Source: Cellulomonas wangleii (GTDB lineage: Bacteria > Actinomycetota > Actinomycetes > Actinomycetales > Cellulomonadaceae). Taken from it: a stretch of 64,000 nt of DNA. Both the position numbers and the translations under genes were made by a program. The stretch covers positions 3,472,001 to 3,536,000 of the forward strand of contig NZ_CP074405.1 in NCBI RefSeq assembly GCF_018388445.1, read 5' to 3'. The notes below the pieces were generated by a model, which made no database searches, had not been told where the DNA came from, and worked only from the letters and a program-made list of their open reading frames with translations. Position 1 is the first letter of the stretch; every line of letters begins with the position of its first letter. This document shows positions 6,125 to 37,419 of the stretch, piece after piece.

Positions 6125-6802
6125 GTGGCGGAGGACATCGTGCTGACGGCGCCGCTGTTCGCGGGCATGGACGAGGAGTCGTCCCGGGCACTCATCGACT
6201 CGATGAAGGTGCTCGACGTCACGCGCGGCGACGTCCTGTTCCACGAGGGCGAGCCGGGCGACCGGCTCTACCTGGTGCGCGACGGCAAGATCAAGCTCGG
6301 CAGGCGGTCCAACGACGGCCGCGAGAACCTGCTGGCCGTCCTCGGGCCCGGCGAGATGTTCGGCGAGCTGTCCCTGTTCGACCCGGGCCCGCGCACCGCG
6401 ACCGCGACGGTCGTGGCCGACGCCGTGGTGCTGGAGCTGGGCCACCGCGACCTCATCACCTGGCTCGCCGACAAGCCGACGGTCGCCGAGCACCTGCTGC
6501 AGGCCCTCGCGCGGCGGCTGCGCCGCACCAACGAGGCGCTCGCGGACCTCGTGTTCTCGGACGTCCCCGGCCGCGTCGCCAAGGCGCTGCTGGACCTGTC
6601 GACGCGGTTCGGCCAGCCCGTCGAGGAGGGCATCCGCGTGGCGCACGACCTCACGCAGGAGGAGCTCGCGCAGCTCGTCGGGGCGTCCCGCGAGACCGTC
6701 AACAAGGCCCTCGCCGACTTCGCCGCACGCGGTTGGGTCCGCCGCGAGGGCCGAGCGGTCGTGCTGCTCGACGTCGACCGGCTGGAGCGTCGCGCCCGCT
6801 GA
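6125..6802 (+). CDS. crp: Crp/GlxR family global transcription regulator
   Basis: A 225-residue cyclic-nucleotide-responsive regulator orthologous in position and sequence to M. tuberculosis Crp and corynebacterial GlxR. The N-terminal beta-barrel has GELSLFDPGPRTATATV, the phosphate-binding cassette with Glu, Arg and Thr that contact cAMP. After the long helix, the helix-turn-helix reads DLTQEELAQLVGASRETVNK (about 178-197). A GTG start at 6125 follows GGGAAGGA. It stands downstream of nth/RsiG-like and convergent with the RidA gene. It probably controls carbon and respiratory genes, including perhaps the cellulase locus in this window; that link is inference. Confidence 0.93.
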   Translation: MAEDIVLTAPLFAGMDEESSRALIDSMKVLDVTRGDVLFHEGEPGDRLYLVRDGKIKLGRRSNDGRENLLAVLGPGEMFGELSLFDPGPRTATATVVADAVVLELGHRDLITWLADKPTVAEHLLQALARRLRRTNEALADLVFSDVPGRVAKALLDLSTRFGQPVEEGIRVAHDLTQEELAQLVGASRETVNKALADFAARGWVRREGRAVVLLDVDRLERRAR

Positions 6803-6843: not shown

Positions 6844-7353
6844 TCAGTCCGTCTCGACGACCAGCTCGAGCTCGACGGGCGAGTCCAGCGGCAGCGCCGC
6901 GACCCCGACGGCCGAGCGGGCGTGCACGCCGCGCTCGTCGAGCAGCTCGTGCAGCAGCAGGCTGGCGCCGTTGACGACGGCGGGGTGGCCCGTGAACGCG
7001 GGGTCGCTCGCGACGAAGCCGACCACCTTGACCACACGACGCACCCGGTCCAGAGCTGCCACCGGGTCCTCGTCGGGCCCCTCGGCCGCGAGGACCGCGC
7101 CGACGGCAGCCAGCGCGTTGAGCGCAGCGGTCCGCGCGAGCGCCGTGGCGGACTCGACGTCGACCTCCGCGCCGACCTTGCCCGTGACCGGCAGGGCGCC
7201 GTCGACGAACGGGAGCTGCCCGGAGGTCCACACGTGCGCGCCGCTGCGGACCGCGGGGACGTACGCCGCGAGCGGCGCCGCGACACCCGGCAGGGTCAGG
7301 CCCCGCTCGGCGAGGCGGGCCGCCACACGGCCGGGTGCCGGGTCCACCGTCAC
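6844..7353 (-). CDS. RidA/YjgF family protein
   Basis: A 169-residue member of the RidA (YjgF/YER057c) family, whose best-known members hydrolyse reactive enamines/imines made by PLP enzymes. Recognisable parts are YVPAVRSGAHVWTSGQLPF, VVKVVGFVASDPAF and SAVGVAALPLDSPVELELVV. It belongs to the longer actinobacterial type found beside crp (Rv3678c-like). The GTG start at 7353 overlaps the stop of the upstream DUF4177 gene by four bases (GTGA), so translation is probably coupled. It is convergent with crp. Confidence 0.88.
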   Translation of the reverse strand: MTVDPAPGRVAARLAERGLTLPGVAAPLAAYVPAVRSGAHVWTSGQLPFVDGALPVTGKVGAEVDVESATALARTAALNALAAVGAVLAAEGPDEDPVAALDRVRRVVKVVGFVASDPAFTGHPAVVNGASLLLHELLDERGVHARSAVGVAALPLDSPVELELVVETD

Positions 7354-7508
7354 GCGCCCTTGGGACGCTTGAGGTACGCGACCAGGCCGGCGTCGGGGCC
7401 CTGGATCACCGTCACGAGCTCCCAGCCGTCGGACCCCCACTGGTCCAGGATCGCCTTGGTGGCATGGATGATGAGCGGAACGGTCGCGTACTCCCACTGG
7501 GTGGCCAT
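7350..7508 (-). CDS. DUF4177 small protein, 52 residues
   Basis: The frame from ATG 7508 starts MATQWEYATVPLIIHATKAI and ends GLVAYLKRPKGA. This is the compact WEY...WGSDGWELVTV pattern of DUF4177 proteins. It is the small gene expected between the RidA and WhiB4 genes in this conserved block. Its last codons overlap the RidA start, so the two are one transcript. Function is unknown in the family. Confidence 0.85.
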   Translation of the reverse strand: MATQWEYATVPLIIHATKAILDQWGSDGWELVTVIQGPDAGLVAYLKRPKGA

Positions 7509-31916: not shown

Positions 31917-34181
31917 ATGACCGACTACGGGCACGAGCTGCAGCTCGGCACGTTCCTCACCCCGCAGAACGCCGACCCGCAGACCCCGGTCGACCTGGCC
32001 GTGCTCACCGAGCAGGCCGGCCTCGATCTGGTGACGTTCCAGGACCACCCGTACCAGCCGTCGTTCCTCGACACCTGGACGCTGCTGTCGTGGGTCGCCG
32101 CGCGCACCGAGCGCGTGCACCTGTCCGGCAACGTCCTCAACGTGCCGATGCGCCCGCCGGCCGTCCTGGCGCGCGCGGCCGCGAGCCTCGACCTGCTGTC
32201 CGGCGGCCGCGTCGAGCTCGGCCTGGGCGCCGGGGCGTTCTGGGACGCCATCGAGGGCATGGGCGTCCCGCGGCTGACCCCCGGCGAGGCCGTCGACGCG
32301 CTCGGCGAGGCCATCGACGTCATCCGCGCCCTGTGGGACACCGACGGGCGCGGCGCGCTGCGCGTCGGCGGCGACCACCACCGCCTCGCGGGCGCCAAGC
32401 GTGGCCCGGCCCCGGCGCACGAGATCGGCATCTGGGTCGGCGCCTACAAGCCCCGCATGCTGCGCCTGGTCGGCCGGAAGGCCGACGGCTGGCTGCCCTC
32501 GCTGGGTTACCTGCAGCCCGGCGACCTCGCGCGCGGCAACGCGACGATCGACGAGGCCGCGACGGCTGCCGGCCGCGACCCCCGCGAGATCCGCCGGCTG
32601 CTCAACATCAACGGCCGCTTCTCCCCCACCCCGGGCGACGGTCTGGACGGCCCGCCCGAGCAGTGGGTCGACGCCCTCGTCCGGTACGCGCTCGAGGACG
32701 GCATCGGCACCTTCGTCCTCGCCACCGACGACCCCGCGACCATCCGGACGTTCGCCGAGCAGGTCGCCCCGGCGGTCCGCGACGCGGTCGCCGCCGAGCG
32801 CGCCTCGTCGGGCACGTCCAGCGGTCCGGTCCGCGCCGCCGCCGCCCTGGCCAAGCGGGTCGACGGCATCGCCTACGACGCCGTGCCCGCCGGCCTGCCC
32901 GCCGTCGAGCCCGGCGACCGCGCGTACGCCTCCCTGCGCTCCACCTACATGCGCCGCGGCGCGCCCGGCATCGTCCTGCTGCCCCGCACCACCGCGCAGG
33001 TGGTCGACGCCCTCGGGTACGCCCGCGAGCAGCGCGGGCCGCTGGCGGTGCGGTCCGGCGGGCACGGCATCTCCGGCCGGTCGACCAACGACGGCGGCGT
33101 CGTGCTCGACGTCGGCGCGCTGGACGAGGTGACGGTCGTCGACGAGGCGACGCGCCGCGTGCGGCTCGGCGCGGGCGCGACCTGGGGCAAGGTCGCCGCG
33201 ACGCTGGCCCCGCACGGGTGGGCGATCTCGTCGGGCGACTACGGCGGCGTCGGCGTCGGCGGGCTGGCGACGACCGGCGGGATCGGCCTGCTCGGCCGCT
33301 CGCAGGGCCTGACCATCGACCACGTCGTCGCCTACGAGGTCGTCACGGCCGACGGCACCGTGCGCGTCGTCGACGCCCGGCACGAGCCCGAGCTGTTCTG
33401 GGGGCTGCGGGGCGCGGGCGGCAACCTCGGCGTCGTCACGTGGGTGGAGCTCGAGGCCCCCGAGGTGCCGGACGTCGTCTTCGCGACCATGACGTTCGAC
33501 GCCTCCGACCCCGCCCGCCTCCTCGCCCGCTGGGGCCGCGTCGTCCAGGACGCCGACCGACGGCTCACCAGCTTCCTGCACGTGCAGGCCGGGGGCAGCG
33601 GCCGTCAGCCGCTCGCGCAGGCCATGACGGTGTGGGCGGACGACGACACGACGTCGGCCGTCGCGGCCCTCGAGGAGCTGCTCGGCGCGGGGACCGTGCT
33701 CGACCAGCGCGCGACCCTCACGCCGTACACCGGCGTCGTCGGCCCGGTGGCCCGCCACCACGACGGCGGTGCACCGCCCGTCACCCGCTCCGGGCTGCTG
33801 CCCGCCATGACGGACGCGGCGGCCGCCGACCTCGGGCGCCTTCTCGGCTCGGGCGAGGCGATGCTGCTGCAGCTGCGGGCGACGGGAGCCGCCGGCAACG
33901 ACGTCGCGCCGGACGCGACCGCGTACGCCCACCGCCACCAGCAGCTCTCGGCCACGGCCTTCGCTGGACGCTCGTCCCGCACCGGGCTGGACGACACGTG
34001 GGACCGGCTCGCGCACCCGCACATGGACGGCCTGTACCTGTCCTTCGAGACCGACCCGCGCCCCGAGCGGCTGCGCGACGCCTTCCCGCCGCTCACGCTC
34101 GACCGGCTGCGGGCGCTCAAGCGCACGTACGACCCGGACCACGTCTTCGACCAGAACTTCCCCATCGACCCGCGGGGCTGA
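31917..34181 (+). CDS. Fusion of LLM flavin monooxygenase and BBE-type FAD oxidase
   Basis: A 754-residue protein joining two flavin enzymes. Residues 1-290 are a luciferase-like (LLM) monooxygenase: MRPPAVLARAAASLDLLSGG, VELGLGAGAFWDAIEGMG, GIWVGAYKPRMLRLVGRKAD. After a 35-residue linker, residues 325-754 are an FAD oxidase of the berberine-bridge type. RSGGHGISGR provides His383 for covalent FAD, and the C-terminus YDPDHVFDQNFPIDPRG is the BBE tail. The second usual flavin link, a Cys after the SGD loop, is Tyr442 (GDYGGVGVGG), so FAD should be held only through His. GGAGG precedes ATG 31917. Divergent MarR control. Confidence 0.9.
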   Translation: MTDYGHELQLGTFLTPQNADPQTPVDLAVLTEQAGLDLVTFQDHPYQPSFLDTWTLLSWVAARTERVHLSGNVLNVPMRPPAVLARAAASLDLLSGGRVELGLGAGAFWDAIEGMGVPRLTPGEAVDALGEAIDVIRALWDTDGRGALRVGGDHHRLAGAKRGPAPAHEIGIWVGAYKPRMLRLVGRKADGWLPSLGYLQPGDLARGNATIDEAATAAGRDPREIRRLLNINGRFSPTPGDGLDGPPEQWVDALVRYALEDGIGTFVLATDDPATIRTFAEQVAPAVRDAVAAERASSGTSSGPVRAAAALAKRVDGIAYDAVPAGLPAVEPGDRAYASLRSTYMRRGAPGIVLLPRTTAQVVDALGYAREQRGPLAVRSGGHGISGRSTNDGGVVLDVGALDEVTVVDEATRRVRLGAGATWGKVAATLAPHGWAISSGDYGGVGVGGLATTGGIGLLGRSQGLTIDHVVAYEVVTADGTVRVVDARHEPELFWGLRGAGGNLGVVTWVELEAPEVPDVVFATMTFDASDPARLLARWGRVVQDADRRLTSFLHVQAGGSGRQPLAQAMTVWADDDTTSAVAALEELLGAGTVLDQRATLTPYTGVVGPVARHHDGGAPPVTRSGLLPAMTDAAAADLGRLLGSGEAMLLQLRATGAAGNDVAPDATAYAHRHQQLSATAFAGRSSRTGLDDTWDRLAHPHMDGLYLSFETDPRPERLRDAFPPLTLDRLRALKRTYDPDHVFDQNFPIDPRG

Positions 34182-34259: not shown

Positions 34260-34343
34260 AGAACGAATCCGCACGGACTCCACATCTCGGGTACCCAGGG
34301 GCGTTGTCAGGGGGCACGCTCATCCCCGAGACCTGGAGGACCC

Positions 34344-34949
34344 ATGAACCCCAGCACCACGTCCCGCCCGCGTCGCAAGCGCCTCGTCGTCGCCGGTGCC
34401 ATCGCGGCGAGCCTGTCCGTCGCCGGCGCCGGCGCGGCGGTGGCCGCGAGCAACGCGACCAGCCCCGAGGGCACCACCGCGGCCGCGGTGCACGAGGGCC
34501 CCGCCGTCGTCACCGAGGCGGACGCCCCGGCGCCGGTGGCGGTGACCGACGCACCCGCGGCGGCGCCCTCCGCCGACGACGAGTGGGCCGCGATGCCCGA
34601 CGGCTACACGCGCGAGCAGTACGAGGCGCTGTGGTCGTCCGGCTACACGCCGGAGGACATCAACGCCCTGGGTGAGCTCTGGCAGATCGAGGGCACCGAG
34701 CTCAAGGCCCGGATCGGTCAGGCCGTCCTGGACGGTGAGCAGCTGCCGGTCGCGCCGGGCTCGACCCCGCAGGACCCGGCCGTCGCGCAGTTCGCCGCCG
34801 TCTGGGAGGCCGGCTACACCGCCGAGGACATCGAGGCGCTCAACGCCCTGTGGGGCACCGACTGGGCCGAGACCAAGGCACGCGCCGGCCAGGCGATCCT
34901 CGACGGTCAGCCGCTGCCCGTCGCGCCGGGCAGCAACCCCGCGTCCTGA
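34344..34949 (+). CDS. Secreted protein with two 50-residue WxxGYT-LDG-LPVAPGS repeats
   Basis: A 201-residue exported protein. The signal peptide (RRKRLVVAGAIAASLSVAGA, cleavage near AVAAS) and an Ala/Pro/Val spacer precede two copies of a repeat (about 91-140 and 149-197). The repeat consensus is W-x2-GYTxEDIxALxxLW-x6-ExKARxGQAxLDG-x-xLPVAPGS. Repeat 1 is introduced by MPDGYTREQ. The same repeat, also twice, forms the outer part of the membrane protein encoded at 36670. I know no named domain. ATG 34344 follows TGGAGG. It is first in a four-gene run with an amidoligase and a sigma factor. Confidence 0.85.
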   Translation: MNPSTTSRPRRKRLVVAGAIAASLSVAGAGAAVAASNATSPEGTTAAAVHEGPAVVTEADAPAPVAVTDAPAAAPSADDEWAAMPDGYTREQYEALWSSGYTPEDINALGELWQIEGTELKARIGQAVLDGEQLPVAPGSTPQDPAVAQFAAVWEAGYTAEDIEALNALWGTDWAETKARAGQAILDGQPLPVAPGSNPAS

Positions 34950-34988
34950 CGACGTCCACCTGACGACCCACCGACGACGAGGACCTTC

Positions 34989-36074
34989 GTGGACGAGCTG
35001 ACGTTGCGCACCGGATTCGAGATCGAGCTCCTGGCCCCGGCCGGGTCCGACAGGCAGGCGCTGGCCGACGTGGTCGCGGCACGGGTGGGGGGCAGCGTGC
35101 GGCGGGCGTTCCACGCCGACAGCCAGCCGTCGCCGGTGCCCGGCGTCAGCGTCTTCCGGCACCTGTCGCCGGCGTTCGACGTCCTCGACGCGCAGGGGGC
35201 GCCGGTAGCACTCCTCGTCGACGACATCACCATCGAGGCGGACCTCGCCCCGGTGCCCGGGTCGCGGCCGCGGCCCGGGCACCGGGGGTGGTACCGGCTG
35301 GTGTCCGACGACGGGCGGCTCCTGCGGCTCGTCGAGCGCACCGTCGACCCTCACGCCCCGCTGGCGACGGTGCTCGACCCCGTCGCGGAGCTCTTCGGGG
35401 TGCACGTCGACGTGTTCCCGGCGGCGGCGCGCGTCAACGACCCCACGGGGGCGTCGATCGCGGTCGCCCTGCCGTTGCCGCCCGGGCGGGAACGCCCGTG
35501 CGAGATCGTCACGCCGCCCCTCGTGCGCGACCACGCGCGCGCCCTCGAGCGGCTCCTGGGGCCCGCCCGGGAGCTCGGGTTCACGATCCCGCAGGAGGCG
35601 GCGGTGCACCTGCACGTCGACGCCGGGCCGTTCCGTCGGTCGTCGGCGTTCGCCAACCTCGTGCGGCTGTTCGCGCACTGGCGCGAGCCGCTGTGGGCCG
35701 CGCTCGGCACCAACCCGCGGTGCCGCCGGCTCGCACCGCTGCCCGACGCGCTCGTCGGGTTCGTCGAGCAGGGCTGGCAGGACACCGACACGGGCTGGTC
35801 GGCCCTGCGCGACGCGGCCCGGGCCGTCGGTCTGACGAAGTACGCGGACGTGAACCTCGTCCAGCTCGTCGCCACGCGGCCCGTGCGCGACACCGTCGAG
35901 GTCCGCATCCTGCCCGGTGCGATCGACGCCCGGTCGGTCGTCGAGCGTGCGGCACTCGTCGAGCGTCTGCTGCTGCGCTGCCTCGACCCCGCACCGCTGC
36001 CGCTGCCGGGACCGGACGCGGCGCACGACCCGCGCGCCGCACTCCAGGACCTCCTCACCGTGGCGGCCCGATGA
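34989..36074 (+). CDS. Amidoligase_2-like (COOH-NH2 ligase) protein
   Basis: A 361-residue protein of the glutamine-synthetase-fold amidoligase group. Family marks seen are GFEIELLAP with Glu11/Glu13, PCEIVTPPL (Glu172), AVHLHVDAG (His207, His209), KYADVNLVQL (Asn289) and TVEVRILPG (Glu304, Arg306). These correspond to the metal/ATP-binding strands of Amidoligase_2 (PF12224), as I recall it. Such enzymes join a carboxyl and an amine in peptides or cell-wall units. GTG 34989 follows a GAGGACC site 39 bp after the secreted repeat gene. The sigma-factor ATG overlaps its stop. The natural substrate is unknown; the co-encoded repeat protein is a candidate. Confidence 0.75.
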   Translation: MDELTLRTGFEIELLAPAGSDRQALADVVAARVGGSVRRAFHADSQPSPVPGVSVFRHLSPAFDVLDAQGAPVALLVDDITIEADLAPVPGSRPRPGHRGWYRLVSDDGRLLRLVERTVDPHAPLATVLDPVAELFGVHVDVFPAAARVNDPTGASIAVALPLPPGRERPCEIVTPPLVRDHARALERLLGPARELGFTIPQEAAVHLHVDAGPFRRSSAFANLVRLFAHWREPLWAALGTNPRCRRLAPLPDALVGFVEQGWQDTDTGWSALRDAARAVGLTKYADVNLVQLVATRPVRDTVEVRILPGAIDARSVVERAALVERLLLRCLDPAPLPLPGPDAAHDPRAALQDLLTVAAR

Positions 36075-36673
36075 CGTGGCTGGGGGCCGTGGGCCCCGAG
36101 AGCGCCGAGGTGCCGGTGGTCGCCCTCGCCGAGCGGCGCCGGGGCCACGGGGCCCGCACGGCCGCCCCCACGACCGCGCTGGACGACCTGGTGCGCACCC
36201 ACCTGCCGGGGCTCCTGCGGTACGCGACCGTCCTCACCGGTGACGGGCACACGGCCGCCGACCTCGTCCAGGAGGTGCTGCTGCGCGCCCACGTGCGCTG
36301 GCACCGCATCGCCCTCATGGAACGCCCCGACCTGTACCTGCGGCGCATGGTGACCAACGAGCACCTGTCGTGGCGGCGACGCTGGCACGTGCGGACGATC
36401 CACCCCGCGTCGGACGACGTGCTGGCCGCGCACGCACCGCCGCAGCACGACCACGCCGGGGCCGCGGGCCGCGACGACGTCATGTGGGAGCACCTGGCCG
36501 CCCTCCCGCCGCGACAGCGCACGGTGCTCGTGCTGCGCTACTACGAGGGCCTGGCCGACCCCGAGATCGCCCAGGTGCTGGGGACGTCGAGCGCGACGGT
36601 GCGCTCGCACGCCGCCCGCGCCCTGGCCACCCTGCGCGACACCGACCTCACCACGGCACCGGAGACACGATGA
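36071..36673 (+). CDS. ECF/SigE-family RNA polymerase sigma factor
   Basis: A 200-residue two-domain sigma factor. Region 2 reads LPGLLRYATVLTGDGHTAAD then LVQEVLLRAHVRWHRIALME. Region 4 reads LPPRQRTVLVLRYYEGLADP then EIAQVLGTSSATVRSHAARA. A 30-residue N-terminal extension is present. ATGA overlaps link it to the amidoligase upstream and to the membrane repeat protein downstream, so all three are translated as a unit. It most likely directs transcription of this operon and perhaps other repeat-protein genes. Confidence 0.92.
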   Translation: MTWLGAVGPESAEVPVVALAERRRGHGARTAAPTTALDDLVRTHLPGLLRYATVLTGDGHTAADLVQEVLLRAHVRWHRIALMERPDLYLRRMVTNEHLSWRRRWHVRTIHPASDDVLAAHAPPQHDHAGAAGRDDVMWEHLAALPPRQRTVLVLRYYEGLADPEIAQVLGTSSATVRSHAARALATLRDTDLTTAPETR

Positions 36674-37419
36674 GCCCGCACCGCCGACCTCCCGGCTCCC
36701 CCGACCCCGCGGTCCCGTCGGACGACGACCTGGCCGCACTGATCACCGGCGCCCTGCACCGACGCGCCCGCACCGCACCCGACCCCGCCGAGGTCGCCGA
36801 CCGGCTCGCCGCGTCGGTGGGCCGCCGCACGCCCCCGCGCGCCGTCGCCCTGCGCCGGGGCGGTCAGGTCCTCGCCGCCGGCGTCGTCACCGGCTCGATC
36901 GCGGTCGCTGCCGGGGGTGCGGCAGCCGCGGCGAACCCGTACTCGCGGGTCGCGGTGGCCTTCGAGGGCGCGGCACGGACCGTCGGCATCGACGTGTCCT
37001 TCATGCCGGACGGGTACACCCGCGAGCAGGACGAGGCGCTCTGGGCGGCGGGGTACGAGACCGAGGAGCTCGACGCCCTCGCGGCGCTGTGGGGCACGGA
37101 CCGCATCGAGACCAAGGCGCGCACCGGGCAGATGCTGCTCGACGGGCTCGAGGTCCCCGTGGCCCCGGGCTCCGTGCCCTCGCCCAACCCCGGGGAGGAC
37201 CAGTCCGAGGCCTTCTGGGCCGCCGGGTACACGTTCGAGGACCTCACGGTGCTGACCGAGCTCTGGGGTGTCGAGCCCTTCGACGCCAAGGTGCGCGCCG
37301 GGCAGGCCGTCCTCGACGGCGAGGCGCTCCCGATCCCGCCCGGTTCCGCACCGTCCCCGGCGGTGCCCGCACCCCTGGACCGGGCCCCGGCGGTCGGACC
37401 CGCGGCCGAGGACGGCTGA
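36670..37419 (+). CDS. Putative anti-sigma-type membrane protein with two outer repeats
   Basis: A 249-residue protein with anti-sigma topology. A 65-residue cytoplasmic N-terminus (SDDDLAALITGALHRRARTA, PAEVADRLAASVGRR) is followed by one transmembrane helix (about 66-88, VLAAGVVTGSIAVAAGGAAA). The outer domain contains two copies (119-168 and 177-226) of the same repeat found in the secreted protein at 34344, including the identical lead MPDGYTREQ. No zinc motif (HxxxCxxC) is present. It is encoded directly after the sigma factor with an ATGA overlap, so I infer that it holds and releases that sigma factor in response to the outer repeats. Confidence 0.75.
   Translation: MSPHRRPPGSPDPAVPSDDDLAALITGALHRRARTAPDPAEVADRLAASVGRRTPPRAVALRRGGQVLAAGVVTGSIAVAAGGAAAAANPYSRVAVAFEGAARTVGIDVSFMPDGYTREQDEALWAAGYETEELDALAALWGTDRIETKARTGQMLLDGLEVPVAPGSVPSPNPGEDQSEAFWAAGYTFEDLTVLTELWGVEPFDAKVRAGQAVLDGEALPIPPGSAPSPAVPAPLDRAPAVGPAAEDG

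Follow-up and report, generated by a model that had tools for sequence, protein, structure and literature searches.

We analysed a 64,000-nt stretch of the Cellulomonas wangleii genome (contig NZ_CP074405.1, positions 3,472,001 to 3,536,000; hereafter the window) and describe a locus of four genes on the + strand at window positions 34344-37419. They encode a putatively exported repeat protein (P1), an Amidoligase_2 enzyme (P2), a sigma factor of the extracytoplasmic function (ECF) type (P3), and a membrane protein bearing the same repeats (P4). An earlier note had proposed that four adjacent genes here form one system in which an amidoligase acts on repeat proteins and a sigma factor monitors the result; a check of the open reading frames (ORFs) found all four genes in that place. 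The features of the locus are as follows.

34278..34307, + strand: ECF-type promoter, with –35 element CTCCACA (34278-34284), a 17-nt spacer and –10 element CGTTGT (34302-34307).
34344..34949, + strand: P1, 201 aa; an N-terminal hydrophobic signal-type segment, suggesting export, and two repeats.
34623..34760, + strand: P1 repeat 1, residues 94-139, with Lys121 (repeat profile and alignment).
34794..34931, + strand: P1 repeat 2, residues 151-196, with Lys178 (repeat profile and alignment).
34989..36074, + strand: P2, 361 aa, GTG start; Amidoligase_2 enzyme with a glutamine-synthetase (GS) fold, no signal segment by eye.
36071..36673, + strand: P3, 200 aa; SigE-family ECF sigma factor.
36670..37419, + strand: P4, 249 aa; membrane protein with anti-sigma topology; its two repeats are predicted to lie outside the cell.
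36721..36825, + strand: two-helix part of P4, residues 18-52; predicted cytoplasmic, candidate anti-sigma domain (AlphaFold2 helices 18-35 and 39-52).
36862..36933, + strand: transmembrane (TM) helix of P4, residues 65-88 (model, with low confidence in the first half, and hydrophobicity).
37030..37173, + strand: P4 repeat 1, approximately residues 121-168, with Lys149 (profile; helices 118-126, 131-141 and 145-157).
37207..37344, + strand: P4 repeat 2, residues 180-225, with Lys207 (profile; helices 176-184, 189-199 and 203-215).

A gap of 39 nt lies between P1 and P2, and the last three genes are joined by the ATGA overlaps that the note had pointed out (at 36071 between P2 and P3, and at 36670 between P3 and P4). 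Its family assignments hold as well. P2 matches Amidoligase_2 (PF12224) at E 3.1e–15 and 57.2 bits, above the cut-off of 22, and its predicted model has the GS fold with the conserved acidic, His and Arg residues present. P3 scores 143.5 bits against SigE-fam_strep (TIGR02983; cut-off 141.55), with Sigma70_r2 and Sigma70_r4 both matched. In profile scans no Pfam or NCBIfam family reached its cut-off in P1 or P4; the sole Pfam match of P4 was sub-threshold (CysA_C_terminal, 14.4 bits), and none fell in its N-terminal part.

The repeats, put by the note at about 50 residues, are 46 residues long and present in two copies each in P1 and P4 (the bounds in P1 were fixed by placing Lys121 and Lys178 at repeat position 28). 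Aligned profiles of the two proteins are alike far beyond chance (hhalign E 3.6e–75 across 180 columns, signal or TM part included), so that the exported and the membrane protein indeed share one repeat. The structure prediction that the note had suggested gave three helices per repeat in the AlphaFold2 model of P4 (pLDDT, the predicted local distance difference test score, ∼87-98 there; mean for the whole model 82.9; predicted template modelling score, pTM, 0.54). A repeat profile detects 233 copies (219 unique) across the collected loci. Among 8000 candidates for each family we found 320 repeat proteins at E 1e–5 and 1090 P2-family proteins at E 1e–10, and the organism names among the best 120 listed for each were actinobacterial. 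The domain label DUF6971 (PF22318) is precomputed on 6 of the 120 listed distant repeat proteins (P0101, P0119, P0130, P0139, P0156 and P0157). On a rescan of seven distant repeat proteins this family scored at most 26.3 bits, below its cut-off of 27, and the Pfam matches of the window proteins, taken to E 1, do not include it.

One repeat position stands out. Of 614 repeats, 612 have Lys at position 28 and none has Arg, while the rest of mature P1 and P4 holds 231 Arg versus 49 Lys. Since these otherwise Arg-rich proteins never place Arg there, an amine seems to be favoured over plain charge.

To see how far the gene set extends, GTDB species genomes were scanned with 27 homologues, which yielded 42 loci in Cellulomonas, Promicromonospora, Sanguibacter, Actinotalea, Myceligenerans, Kineococcus, Quadrisphaera and one metagenome-assembled genome (MAG) of Promicromonosporaceae (loci and genomes carry our numbers, L and G). 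The order P1-P2-P3-P4 is intact in 31 of the 42, and a contig end cuts ten (L043, L044, L053, L055, L056, L061, L069, L070, L071 and L076). In L068, from Promicromonospora kroppenstedtii, a lone repeat gene (6896-7486) has a sigma-type promoter and neither P2 nor P3 within ∼7 kb. Mean column identity is 71% for P2, 44% for P4 and 37% for P1 (the P1 set includes paralogues). This is an undescribed conserved gene set in some soil actinobacteria, consisting of an amidoligase and putatively exported helical-repeat proteins, often with a repeat-bearing membrane protein.

P2 and the repeats are closely tied. In a genus sample of 81 genomes, P2 was found in 30 and a repeat match in 33, and all 30 P2 genomes were repeat-positive (Fisher P-value 4e–19 against all 33 repeat genomes, uncorrected for kinship). 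An order sample of 396 genomes gave P2 in 21 and repeats in 22, with 21/21 P2 genomes shared, and a class sample of 394 gave P2 in 5 and repeats in 6, with 5/5 shared; the three samples overlap, our own genome being in all of them, and the counts ignore kinship. The three genus matches without P2 are a decayed locus (G018) and two weak partial matches in genomes without any repeat by profile; the one in the order sample comes from a MAG that is 76% complete, where the match falls at the start of a contig, and the one in the class sample is again weak and partial. A repeat lies inside the stretch at 23/23 P2 loci that were fetched from the order and class searches, adjoining P2 in 22 with L123 the exception (two of these loci, L121 and L124, seem to come from the same organisms as L073 and L075). 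Repeats spread widely without such neighbours had been named in advance as evidence against the system; for the amidoligase, these counts do not refute the tie. The tight core is thus repeat protein plus amidoligase, not sigma factor. Extra repeat genes without a P2 of their own do occur in genomes that hold an operon. P2 looks like a discrete Amidoligase_2 subfamily: the class search, scoring at most five candidates per genome, gave no P2 match between E 6e–123 and the limit of 1e–8, and the homologue in the distant locus L129 still matches PF12224 (52.5 bits). A mostly superficial literature search found no PF12224 enzyme with an assigned substrate.

The sigma factor is an add-on and is not obligatory to the module. 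Six repeat-P2 pairs (L106, L109, L110, L133, L134 and L135) show no P3-like sigma in their flanking sequence, and on this point the interpretation of the earlier note is not supported in the form given. Gene orders also vary: six Kineococcus-type loci (L115-L120) run sigma, short one-repeat protein, P1, P2, and in L107, L108, L114, L129, L130 and L131 the sigma is followed by a membrane protein with two to five repeats and then P2. Of 129 repeat proteins, 16 show no hydrophobic segment downstream of their called start and were left out of the topology count; they are contig-end pieces or have miscalled starts, and include the membrane-type proteins of L075, L124, L123 and L115. The count covers the other 113, whose starts are usable (107 distinct). 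All 55 repeat proteins directly after a sigma gene (52 distinct) have a TM segment at residue 42-89; for the other 58 (55 distinct) the hydrophobic segment lies at or before residue 27 in 56, the exceptions being L106 (residue 39) and L065 (residue 84, start miscalled upstream of the promoter). Hence, the extra N-terminal part tracks sigma adjacency. Together with the P4 model, this TM position agrees with the anti-sigma-like topology that had been predicted for the membrane protein. The model shows two predicted cytoplasmic helices, where a class I anti-sigma domain has four, and the N-terminal part of P4 appears closer to class II CnrY, for which a two-helix layout is described (PMC7406223), than to class I.

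To follow the history of the sigma, 24 operon sigmas were placed in a tree with 24 SigE-type paralogues, limited to paralogues with retrieved loci; six long-branch sigma rows were removed for a second and a third tree. Operon sigmas split into two groups. A single clade of them was rejected (P-value 2.4e–6, 18 paralogues) only due to L182, a paralogue sigma inside the Kineococcus-type group; with L182 counted among the operon sigmas it was not (P-value 0.064), and the claim that the module joined a sigma twice failed this fairer test. Next to L182 lies a gene for an anti-sigma-like protein whose N-terminal part is of the same kind but which has no repeats, so the repeat ectodomain is exchangeable and was swapped at least once.

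Upstream of P1, the motif CTSCACA, 16-17 nt, CGTYN[TC] is present in 30 of the 32 sigma operons with upstream sequence, its –35 element starting 64-71 nt ahead of the gene (in L065 measured on a hand-set stretch). The two operons without the strict motif within 130 nt are L076, which has a one-base variant, and L075, where the motif lies at 6653 and the start is probably miscalled. Strict scans of whole loci found none in the sigma-less L133-L135 and L110, nor in L005, and none stood ahead of the repeat genes of L106 and L109 or of the paralogues in L044 and L047. As a sequence motif, this promoter belongs to the Cellulomonas-Promicromonospora branch and its allies. A loose version of the pattern matched our own genome 7 times versus 15 for a reversed control; by itself the motif is therefore not specific, and no clear wider regulon was seen in the own-genome and genus pattern counts. 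We infer recognition of the operon promoter by P3 itself, and autoregulation in this one branch is probable.

Individual loci show further variation. L136 (G018) occupies the same site between oxidase and asd/lysC genes and retains the promoter and a one-repeat P1, with P2 absent; it is a decayed locus and a natural loss of the module. At L124:4774-6068 (G221), as at L075:7282-8576 (Quadrisphaera), the amidoligase is broken into two ORFs that overlap, and the two are probably one locus seen twice. L137 (G033) has two module copies ∼7 kb apart, no P1 being detected in the second. In L123 (G010) a repeat ORF overlaps a P3 match in another frame, there is no P1 ahead of P2, and a further repeat gene lies ∼7 kb off; this copy is possibly decaying or rearranged. 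An MKPLAS-type repeat subfamily accompanies P2 without a sigma in L133, L134 and L135 (Cellulomonas), and separate genes of this type stand just after an operon at L044:1616 and L047:7800, sharing a TCTAGGGT-like upstream block. Our own genome has a second repeat protein (L005:5762-6361; G000:C1:3969773-3970357), alongside which P2 and P3 were not found; its gene lies upstream of a large secreted ORF, cellulase-like by eye. Directly upstream of the operon, at window 31917-34181, is a 754-aa ORF that by eye fuses a luciferase-type monooxygenase to an FAD-linked oxidase and stays beside the operon in a minority of loci.

Ligases of the GS fold use ATP to couple carboxylates with amines, and membrane anti-sigma factors with a layout like that of P4 sequester ECF sigmas. 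With slightly less than an even chance of being right, we propose a modification-and-surveillance module, in which P2 modifies the repeats and P4 senses their state and sets operon expression. P2 would be a cytoplasmic, ATP-dependent carboxylate-amine ligase that modifies the three-helix repeats in both P1 and P4 ahead of their export, its likeliest amine being the near-invariant Lys at position 28. P1 would then be located outside the cell. The two-helix N-terminal part of P4 would keep P3 at the membrane, and P4 would expose the same repeats outside. The state of these repeats (modified or not, bound or not) would set the amount of P3 released, which in turn would drive its own operon promoter. 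P2 has one constant partner family, which makes the repeats as its substrate the simplest reading; we likewise infer that the position-28 lysine is the site and that P4 reads the result. The chemistry can be put more specifically, namely that P2 places an isopeptide or amino-acid amide on the Lys of each repeat, giving a cross-linked or decorated surface protein and a new class of modification; in this strong form we find the idea doubtful. The bond may join Lys28 to the conserved Asp or Asn at position 12 of the same or a neighbouring repeat.

Several observations weigh against the proposed modification and surveillance. Co-occurrence does not name a substrate, because operon partners are inherited together. 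P2 lacks a signal segment and is apparently cytoplasmic while the repeats are outside, so modification would have to precede export. Position 12 is Asp in 556 and Asn in 47 of 614 repeats, which fits helix capping as well as chemistry, and Lys28 could therefore be structural. Position 28 is Ala in 1% of 218 repeats, and the distant repeat set is rich in Lys anyway (1465 other Lys, 342 Arg). The repeat gene of L068 bears the promoter motif without a P2 nearby, and L123, with a repeat after a P3 match, looks degenerate. On the regulatory side, whole-locus scans of five distant sigma loci (L115, L117 and L129-L131) did not detect the promoter motif, and the pattern count is higher by 1.74 per genome in 27 sigma-positive versus 47 sigma-negative genomes, so P3 may have other targets.

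Three other explanations can be set beside this one. P2 could make a small amide product or alter the wall, with the repeats binding that product: P1 on the surface, and P4 as a sensor in the manner of RsgI anti-sigmas, which bear modules that bind a substrate. This is possible, if on the unlikely side. Against it, the repeat and P2 alone recur as a unit, no other constant partner was noticed (in unannotated neighbour lists of seven loci only), and a Lys that is never Arg is unexpected in a plain binding module. Rather improbable is a plain ECF stress module whose surface repeat is structural, in which the amidoligase is a passenger and the lysine purely structural. Sigmas of this general type are indeed common (at E 1e–15, 10 genomes have 8 to 30 matches each, many of them below the family cut-off), and Asp12 and Lys28 could form a structural pair. 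However, in a comparison of P1, P2 and P4 the most conserved protein is P2, it stays with the repeats in sigma-less pairs and under the other gene order and sigma group, and one would expect a passenger to have been lost in places, whereas no P2 genome lacks repeats. Finally, Pup is a small tag with a C-terminal Gly-Gly-Glu or Gln, and a PafA/Pup-like role, in which P2 links a carboxylate of P1 to lysines on other proteins, is most improbable, given that the only repeat protein found beside P2 in L107, L129, L130 and L131 is the membrane protein, that P1 bears a signal-type segment, and that the C-termini of P1 and P4 have no Gly-Gly-Glu or Gln tail.

We know of no system with this combination; P2 is classed in Amidoligase_2 and P3 among SigE-family ECF sigmas, and the whole system in neither. 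P2 belongs to Amidoligase_2 by profile and has its GS fold by model, but differs in having a partner repeat protein. A SigE-family ECF sigma with a membrane anti-sigma resembles the layout of P3 and P4, except that here the repeat ectodomain is shared with an exported protein. DUF6971 matches only some distant repeat proteins, faintly and below cut-off on rescan. In SigI/RsgI of Clostridium thermocellum the extracellular domain of a membrane anti-sigma acts as a substrate sensor (PMC12203970), and by analogy RsgI is the nearest working counterpart for a sensor ectodomain; however, the sigma family is another one, the module adds a dedicated amidoligase, and P4 has no Pfam match above cut-off. 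Pup and PafA of actinobacteria pair a GS-related ligase with a dedicated ribosomal partner (PMC3511204), whereas P2 is an Amidoligase_2 enzyme and its partner an exported or membrane three-helix repeat protein. Graspetides, which are ATP-grasp-modified ribosomally synthesized and post-translationally modified peptides (RiPPs), likewise have a ligase beside a ribosomal substrate, possibly with repeated core units (PMC8939145); P2, in contrast, has a GS rather than an ATP-grasp fold, and the repeats are folded 46-residue domains rather than short core peptides.

Overall, the observations of the earlier note are confirmed and its interpretation is partly supported, the emphasis shifting from the sigma to the pair of amidoligase and repeat protein. 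PF12224 enzymes are annotated as putative amidoligases; one subfamily here has a small, expressible partner, present in every examined genome with the enzyme, which makes substrate and site directly testable. The repeat family itself, described here, has at most a faint Pfam relative. One repeat protein takes two forms, the one free and exported, the other the outer part of a membrane protein beside a sigma, which opens the wiring from sensor to sigma to experiment. If the more specific chemistry, the doubtful strong form, is real, the anti-sigma repeats would be a sampled copy by which the cell gauges its own modification capacity or its surface coat.

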